Made by a program: the position numbers and the translations under genes
The notes under the pieces: generated by a model
Database searches by the model: none
The model's input: the letters and a program-made list of their open reading frames with translations, nothing else
Told to the model about the DNA's origin: nothing
Assembly (NCBI GenBank): GCA_030835305.1
Contig: JAURPJ010000040.1
Coordinates: forward strand, 1 to 63,897
DNA: 63,897 nt
Direction: 5' to 3'
Origin: Verrucomicrobiota bacterium
GTDB lineage: Bacteria; Verrucomicrobiota; Verrucomicrobiia; Verrucomicrobiales; Akkermansiaceae
Shown here: piece after piece, positions 58,230 through 59,211 of the stretch
Position numbering within the stretch: the stretch's first letter is position 1
Layout: every line of letters starts with the position of its first letter

Positions 58230-58487
58230 ATGGAAAAACATACTCGTGGCGTTGAAGTCAAAAGTGGAGAGAGCGTCGATCGCGCCCTGAAGCGCTTGAA
58301 AACCAAGCTCGACACCGAAGGAATTCTTGAGGAAATGCGTCGTCGTCGCGCCCATGAGAGCACCATCACTCGCGCCATCCGCAAGGCCCGCACTGCTCCC
58401 AAGCGCAACAAAGTCCGTTGGAGATTCCAGAGTGAATCCCAAGTCGCGACAGCTGAAGCAGCCCAAGCCGCCCGAAACGCCGAATAA
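58230..58487 (+). CDS. rpsU: Ribosomal protein bS21
   Basis: This small basic 30S subunit protein is needed for efficient initiation on mRNAs. The chosen ATG gives 85 residues, and the core VEVKSGESVDRALKRLKTKL followed by EEMRRRRAHEST is diagnostic of bS21. An earlier in-frame start would add 21 residues that do not resemble the family. The C-terminus is longer and more alanine-rich than in E. coli (71 residues), as in related phyla. It is followed by a terminator-like hairpin. Confidence 0.93.
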   Translation: MEKHTRGVEVKSGESVDRALKRLKTKLDTEGILEEMRRRRAHESTITRAIRKARTAPKRNKVRWRFQSESQVATAEAAQAARNAE

Positions 58488-58644: not shown

Positions 58645-59211
58645 ATGAATGCAAAAATGAGATTCGGCATTATGTGTGCCTTCGGAGCAATGACCCCGGT
58701 AGCTCTCGCTGCCCCGGTTGATGCTGAAGACGTCGCCGCATCGACCATCCCGGGATACTCGGTATCCTTCAGCGGTGGTGGGTGAGGTGCTGCTAAAAAG
58801 GCCCGTGCGGCCTTGGGGAAAATGGAAGGAATTGAGAAGGTAATGCTTTCGGGCATGACCGCTTTCGTAACCACCAAAAACGAAGAGGTTAAATTCACCC
58901 GCTTGAACGTGGGCAAAGCCCTCTCCGCTGGTGGACTGAAGCTCGAACGTGTTAAGAAAAGAGAAATCGCTGCACCCGAGGAAGCTTATGCAATCGCCGT
59001 CACCGGTGGCACATGAGCGCAGACCAATGAGAGATTGCGTGCCGATCTCGAAAAGTTGGACGAAGTAAGTGCTGCATTCGTCAATGCCGGTTCCATCACC
59101 CTTCTTATGGCGAAAGCCGACTCCTTTGATGAGGAGAAGATTGGTGAAATGACCAAAAAGCGCAAGTCCGTCATTAAGAAGGCGACCAAGCTTGCCGCGA
59201 GCCCACTCTAG
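58645..59211 (+). CDS. Candidate double-selenocysteine exported protein with two HMA-like repeats
   Basis: One frame of 188 codons plus stop runs from ATG to TAG with TGA at 58783-58785 and 59014-59016, which I read as Sec47 and Sec124. The N-terminus is a signal peptide (MRFGIMCAFGAMTPVALA then APVDAED). Two repeats follow. Repeat 1 has GYSVSFSGGG-U-GAAKKARAAL and then GIEKVML, and repeat 2 has AYAIAVTGGT-U-AQTNERLRADL and then DEVSAAF. In each, Tyr lies 9 residues before the TGA codon. The pattern strand-GGx[C]xxx-helix-G(V/I) is that of heavy-metal-associated domains, with the TGA at the first Cys of GMxCxxC and no second Cys. A hairpin with loop CGTGC follows each TGA. The likely role is periplasmic metal or redox chemistry. 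The alternative is a pseudogene with two nonsense mutations. Confidence 0.8.
58798..58814 (+). promoter_or_regulatory. Putative bacterial SECIS element 1
   Basis: The stem AAGGCC/GGCCTT (6 bp, perfect) closes the 5-nt loop CGTGC. It starts 12 nt after the first in-frame TGA, and the loop guanine lies 20 nt after it, within the range of bacterial SECIS hairpins. It lies in the coding region, as bacterial SECIS elements must. Confidence 0.65.
59031..59049 (+). promoter_or_regulatory. Putative bacterial SECIS element 2
   Basis: The stem GAGATTG/CGATCTC (7 bp, one G-T wobble) closes the same loop CGTGC as the first hairpin. It starts 14 nt after the second in-frame TGA, with the loop guanine 23 nt after it. 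The stem sequence is unrelated to that of element 1, so the structure is conserved while the sequence is not. Confidence 0.65.

Follow-up and report, generated by a model that had tools for sequence, protein, structure and literature searches.

A probable two-selenocysteine protein carrying one selenocysteine in each of two tandem HMA domains

MerP is a periplasmic protein of the heavy-metal-associated (HMA) type. A 'Mercuric transport protein MerP' is listed among the selenocysteine (Sec, U) families of the Global Ocean Sampling set in the accessible part of that paper (PMC2398784), which gives a published basis to the marine MerP-like selenoproteins mentioned in the initial annotation of the DNA studied here; any likening of these to the protein described below, and to a single-HMA GxxU-xxx-C kind from the same bacteria, is by family name only. 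A 2026 review tabulates 119 prokaryotic selenoprotein families and subfamilies, and in its accessible part most characterised selenoproteins are of thioredoxin-like fold with a redox motif, while the NF041115 type is given as a 'putative mercuric reductase' with a UxxU motif and 2 Sec (PMC13188914). NCBIfam holds NF041115 itself (UxxU_metal_bind, a metal-binding (seleno)protein) and NF045683, a MerT/CopZ fusion-like heavy metal transport selenoprotein, and tandem HMA domains with Cys loops occur in CopA (1p6t, 2rml) and ATP7B.

In the window, i.e. the whole stretch of 63,897 nt of DNA from a Verrucomicrobiota bacterium related to the Akkermansiaceae analysed here, lies a gene (Table 1) whose product is best explained overall as a genuine two-selenocysteine protein with tandem HMA domains, most likely binding a soft metal, a reading to which we assign a probability of about 0.8. 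The window protein reached the cut-off of no model in NCBIfam release 20.0; the nearest one, NF041115, gave 16.5 bits versus a cut-off of 95 and was matched by 33/35 members of the new group at E-values up to 1 (best 4.5e-9). In both, the metal loop of a domain related to HMA contains Sec; however, NF041115 has 74 positions and both Sec in one UxxU loop, whereas each of the two domains of the present protein has a single Sec without a second ligand, position U+3 never being U (51 sequences at site 1, 50 at site 2). NF045683 is likewise an HMA-type selenoprotein, with metal transport in its name, and was matched by 2/35 members (best E 0.06), but it is by name a fusion, of 235 positions, in contrast to a free-standing and apparently exported tandem in which no MerT part was seen. 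For MerP (TIGR02052, cut-off 92.55 bits) the window protein had no match at E up to 1, and 20/35 members matched at that level, the best at 1.4e-5. CopA and ATP7B resemble it in having two consecutive HMA domains (Foldseek E-values of 1e-5 to 7e-4), but they have Cys CxxC loops and a P-type ATPase part, unlike a free-standing, apparently exported protein with Sec and no CxxC. An exported-looking Cys protein of the same taxonomic family (L111 and kin) also has two HMA domains, but with GxxCxxC in both loops (10 tree loci), and the Sec protein falls into a separate tree group (support 100/100). By their names, domains and motifs, none of the 119 families and subfamilies in the accessible part of the review is a tandem HMA protein with one Sec per domain (PMC13188914), and no report of a two-Sec tandem-HMA protein was found among the matches listed by searches of open-licence literature. 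HMA-type selenoproteins as such are known, and the tandem form with one Sec per domain looks so far unlisted.

Table 1. Features of the putative two-Sec gene (window coordinates)
Feature	Position	Strand	Details
Two-Sec tandem-HMA protein gene (probable)	58645..59211	+	188 aa from ATG to TAG, with TGA codons 47 and 124 read as Sec
Likely signal peptide, residues 1-23 (MNAKMRFGIMCAFGAMTPVALAA), cleavage site estimated	58645..58713	+	read by eye; residues 1-31 with pLDDT < 50
HMA domain 1 (predicted), residues 34-109, beta-alpha-beta-beta-alpha-beta	58744..58971	+	predicted structure, profiles
TGA codon 1, Sec 47, counterpart of first Cys in GMxCxxC	58783..58785	+	51/51 copies; U47 aligned with U124
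SECIS-like hairpin 1 of bacterial type, with stem AAGGCC/GGCCTT and loop CGTGC from 19 nt past TGA 1	58798..58814	+	comparative
HMA domain 2 (predicted), residues 113-182	58981..59190	+	predicted structure, profiles
TGA codon 2, Sec 124, aligned with first Cys of GMxCxxC	59014..59016	+	50/50 copies reaching the site; CopA profile alignment
SECIS-like hairpin 2 of bacterial type, with stem AGATTG/CGATCT and loop CGTGC from 22 nt past TGA 2	59032..59048	+	comparative
Intrinsic-terminator-like hairpin 3' of the stop codon	59241..59278	+	-25.9 kcal/mol, z -5.6

When the two halves of the protein were compared as profiles (hhalign), they aligned with a probability of 98.3 and an E-value of 9.5e-14, U47 lying opposite U124, in agreement with the initial annotation of one frame with two TGA codons at equivalent positions of two repeats. 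A gene caller without Sec reading would stop this protein at the first TGA. The strong terminator that had been claimed after the TAG is visible as a hairpin (Table 1), though it is absent from the output of the consensus pattern scan, and promoter and terminator pattern scans around the gene returned nothing useful; the hairpin suggests that the transcript ends there.

The gene was carried by 51 of the 260 genomes of the same taxonomic family as the window, in five genera. The TGA at site 1 was kept in all 51 copies and that at site 2 in all 50 copies reaching it, the 51st (L050) ending at a contig end before site 2, and the TGAs were still kept in the most distant copies, with 25-30% protein identity to the window protein. 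These counts leave out a weak second match of G229 (E 6.6e-4; 52 places reduced to 51), which is a different, single-domain gene. A Cys codon was seen at neither site among the 51 copies, and the homologues with Cys at residues 47 and 124 that the initial annotation had suggested looking for were not found as orthologues. Within the aligned protein, TGA is confined to sites 1 and 2; the extra in-frame TGAs of L082 lie only past the C-terminal motif, the first apparently being the stop, and the '2 TGA, 1 TAA' of G208 comes from an alignment overrunning the gene's own TAA. The motif first proposed, Y-x5-GG-x-TGA, is better written as G-x-G/T-U, with GGGU in 33/51 and GKGU in 11/51 copies at site 1 and GGTU in 20/50 and GTGU in 10/50 at site 2; beside the Sec residues, G44, G46 and G121 are invariant across 35 diverse proteins. 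Median Ka/Ks values, determined from 7 close sequences with the window included, were 0.16 for residues 29-46 (20 pairs), 0.13 for residues 48-123 (21 pairs) and 0.045 for residues 125-188 (21 pairs), so the sequence past each TGA is constrained as protein, as expected from the earlier view that coding goes on there. Homologues are interrupted at the same two positions and not elsewhere, and neither random nonsense mutations nor sequencing errors, both of which had been considered from the start, can account for identical codons in 51 genomes.

The genome of the window, 96.9% complete, has selA, selB, a tRNA-Sec with anticodon TCA and selD, i.e. every component of the machinery whose absence would have spoken against recoding. 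Its selD (L113, G000:C27:15132-16061) has one in-frame TGA within the motif CGGU, and its selenophosphate synthetase is, as read from this codon, likely itself a selenoprotein. Within the family, selA was detected in 48/51 carriers versus 22/209 non-carriers (Fisher p 2e-31, a value that ignores kinship). The three carriers with no selA match (G183, G184 and G243) all have selB above cut-off, and G183 and G243 also tRNA-Sec, so that each of the 51 carriers has at least one Sec gene. When the 22 non-carriers with selA were searched with the profile, together with G240, G201 and G209, the double-Sec gene was found in 0/25 of these genomes, which means that it is not the sole reason to retain Sec; the two matches obtained among the 25 belong to the two other HMA kinds described below.

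Downstream of each TGA a SECIS-like hairpin was recognised by comparison of the copies. With 172 placements scanned per site, both hairpins, each of a 6-bp stem and a 5-nt loop, were the best placement: 95.1% of cells were paired at hairpin 1 and 98.2% at hairpin 2, versus medians over placements of 37% and 35%, with 38 and 80 double-sided changes, respectively, tallied as alignment cells that are not independent events. Shuffling of synonymous codons in 36-nt windows gave the lowest mean z at codon offset +3 for both sites (-1.71 and -1.56), and weaker dips were seen 15 and 12 codons before site 1 (-0.94 and -0.85) and 36 codons after site 2 (-0.82). The loop reads xGTxx in 50/51 distinct sequences at site 1 and in 44/47 at site 2, the remainder having GG. 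Taken alone, the window sequence folds at the two hairpins no better than shuffles (z 0.63 and -0.55), and an Rfam search of the gene yielded no SECIS family or other relevant RNA, only two chance-level matches. In the repeat alignment both loops fall on the same codon, that of R54 and R132, which suggests that the hairpin was duplicated along with the domain. R132 is invariant in 35/35 aligned proteins, its codon being the loop CGT and rarely CGG, and its counterpart in domain 1, residue 54, is R, S or G with always an xGT or CGG codon; this suggests that the invariance of R132 is due at least partly to an RNA constraint, and would make it a case in which RNA constraint can mimic protein conservation. 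The gene would also offer a natural pair of duplicated SECIS elements in one gene. From these sequence comparisons, recoding of UGA as Sec at both sites appears close to certain.

The protein fold was approached by profiles and by structure prediction. Searching the PDB with a 35-member profile retrieved both CopA HMA domains (E 2.8e-8), and the Sec column of domain 2 sits on the first Cys of the CopA GMTCAAC, so the earlier placement of the TGA at the first Cys of GMxCxxC stands. Pfam HMA (PF00403) scored the window protein at 13.1 bits, below the gathering threshold of 24.8, and three further members at 24.2 bits, 20.0 bits and no match; 23/35 members matched at E up to 1, the best at 1.1e-7. 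AlphaFold2 with 11 sequences predicted two beta-alpha-beta-beta-alpha-beta units (mean pLDDT 79.4, pTM 0.70), i.e. a ferredoxin-like fold in both halves, as HMA domains have it. VIA-align superposed domain 2 on the HMA7 copper domain with a Z of 10.5 and an rmsd of 2.0 over 72 residues, and domain 1 on PacS with a Z of 9.3 and an rmsd of 1.9 over 64. Full-length Foldseek TM-scores to CopA were low (0.30-0.32 by query), thus the arrangement of the two domains differs from that of CopA or is uncertain. A tandem HMA fold is very probable on the strength of the profiles and the predicted structure, both of which support the HMA-like fold of the initial annotation. In place of the two-Cys GMxCxxC loop there is Sec in the first place and neither Cys nor Sec at U+3 (51 sequences at site 1, 50 at site 2); domain 1 has A, G, S, T or P at this position, and domain 2 has T in 43/50 sequences. 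The mature protein is free of Cys in 48/51 copies, one of these cut short, and has a single Cys in L074, L082 and L084; hence any soft-ligand chemistry in those 48 must use Sec.

From its N-terminus, read by eye, the two-Sec protein is in all likelihood exported. Within the likely signal peptide, Cys11 (window 58675-58677) is kept in 11/11 sequences of the close alignment (window plus 10 relatives) and is expected to be removed by cleavage; it is missing in many distant homologues. A loose lipobox pattern matched 11 N-termini. By eye, lipoprotein-like N-termini, with S-C after a hydrophobic stretch, were seen in L078, L079, L081, L083, L084 and L085, all of genus g13, L079 having been overlooked by the pattern, and the two-Sec protein of this genus may be membrane-anchored.

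Putting these observations into a scheme, each of the two UGAs would be read as Sec under the hairpin just downstream, as the comparative evidence indicates, and the product, judging from the N-terminus, would reside outside the cytoplasm, either exported or lipid-anchored. In each of its two tandem HMA domains one Sec would stand in for the first metal-binding Cys, with no second Cys, and the protein would most likely bind a soft metal ion, i.e. Cu(I), Ag(I), Hg(II) or Cd(II), via selenolates. Each loop would give one ligand, and the site could be completed by the other domain, a second molecule, a partner HMA protein or a small thiol, in keeping with a putative role in scavenging or chaperoning metal in the periplasm. 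To judge from the tree and the matching hairpin positions, a single Sec-bearing domain was probably duplicated, hairpin included, to give the two-domain form. With fold and ligand position as the grounds, metal binding is somewhat favoured as the main role, and a lone Sec per HMA loop with no usual second ligand does not assure metal affinity. More tentatively, the duplication of domain and SECIS could have created a selenium-only site, in which two selenolates, one from each HMA loop, jointly hold a single metal ion, or pair as a diselenide, across domains or molecules; if this is true, selection acts both on the repeat in the protein and on that in the RNA. Sec here twice takes the ligand position in a fold that is classical for metal carriers, with no helping Cys, and if metal is bound, it becomes a testable question why evolution pays for Sec as a metal ligand.

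The same scaffold could instead serve a two-Sec redox protein, a selenol/diselenide oxidoreductase or peroxidase of HMA type and not a metal carrier, which we consider unlikely though the most serious of the alternatives. That neither domain has a second metal-binding Cys would leave single reactive selenols, and most uncharacterised selenoproteins are likely redox proteins according to the accessible part of the review (PMC13188914); but the solved relatives of the HMA fold are mostly metal carriers, and no resolving Cys is available in the 48 Cys-free mature proteins. The surroundings of the gene lend themselves to the redox role in part, as a peroxiredoxin-like ORF lies downstream of the gene in the window and was found there in 5/50 loci (4 genomes), and in 10 loci of a different genus (g9) a FAD-oxidoreductase-like ORF, identified by eye, follows on the opposite strand; such redox-type neighbours, however, vary by genus and fit local synteny. 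Clustering of the neighbours of the 50 loci, which are partly duplicate records, mostly recovered local synteny, the largest cluster comprising 14 loci that all belong to the window's genus. In the 30 largest clusters, read by eye and without family models, no metal gene was noticed beside the two-Sec gene and no mer-like gene either. The neighbours do not decide between metal and redox roles.

It is very improbable that the UGAs serve mainly to sense selenium, or the protein to store it, a scheme in which a lack of Se would yield a useless 46-residue peptide and its supply would bank Sec outside the cell membrane. Two UGA sites in a short protein with no Cys alternative would suit it, but domain 2 is strongly constrained (median Ka/Ks 0.045) and the invariance of the three glycines beside the Sec residues in 35 diverse proteins points to a folded function. 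Reading of UGA in another way, e.g. as Trp (code 4), or by unspecific read-through is scarcely credible, as the complete Sec machinery, tRNA-Sec(TCA) included, is encoded in the genome, the selD of the same genome has its TGA in CGGU, and TGA is confined to two sites of the aligned protein. A decayed gene, a frameshifted overlap or a sequencing error, for which only the two stops themselves speak, has a negligible chance, given the same two codons in 51 genomes and the low Ka/Ks after each TGA.

Two other HMA kinds accompany the two-Sec protein in these bacteria. One is a second HMA selenoprotein kind with a single exported-looking domain and the motif GxxU-xxx-C (L086:639-956 (G229:C131), L112:461-784 and L135-L154), in which TGA stands at that place in 21/21 loci read and, when the 42 nt that follow are folded, the best structure contains the same downstream stem in 18/21. 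Two members tested passed no NCBIfam cut-off, and one member tested was above the Pfam HMA cut-off; the gene was not found in the window's own genome. On each of three contigs (G213:C47, G211:C188 and G212:C32), two such TGA-bearing matches lie close together and are perhaps tandem gene copies. The other is the exported-looking tandem-HMA Cys protein with a Cys-rich leader (L111:1108-1731, L115-L126, and in the window's own genome L155:5557-6147, the same gene as L134), which coexists with the double-Sec gene in several genomes (e.g. G211, G212, G213 and G217). The own-genome copy (L134) is more divergent, domain 1 having no CxxC loop; it and several further copies with changes in one domain were left out of the tree. 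A tree of 69 domains over 72 columns, with Sec entered as C, midpoint rooting and many forks unresolved, set the 40 double-Sec domains apart from the 29 others (Cys-tandem and UxxxC) with support of 100/100, so the double-Sec protein is probably a lineage of its own, most simply derived, as far as the sequences tell, by duplicating one Sec-bearing domain. The Cys tandem-HMA proteins were considered as Cys orthologues of the double-Sec protein and rejected, since they form a separate group on this tree.

Beyond the family, 387 genomes of the phylum were searched with the profile and 13 matched, of which 3 had the two-TGA gene, all in the window's family, and no carrier was found outside it among the 387. 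The other 10 were partial matches, and the six of them that were read (L101, L102, L104, L105, L106 and L110) are ordinary Cys-loop HMA proteins. Viral contigs and plasmids gave no match, and a contig scan with short exact peptides of the window protein returned 11 close relatives. Upstream of the gene in the window lies an S21-like (rpsU) ORF (58230-58484), and a gene of this type precedes the two-Sec gene, on its strand and at a distance of 143-253 nt, in 20/50 loci, all of the window's genus, which is probably plain synteny. Ten loci of the window's genus share a solute-symporter-like ORF, identified by eye, as a neighbour, and L063 and L069, which belong to two genera, have a sulfatase-like ORF less than 100 nt downstream.
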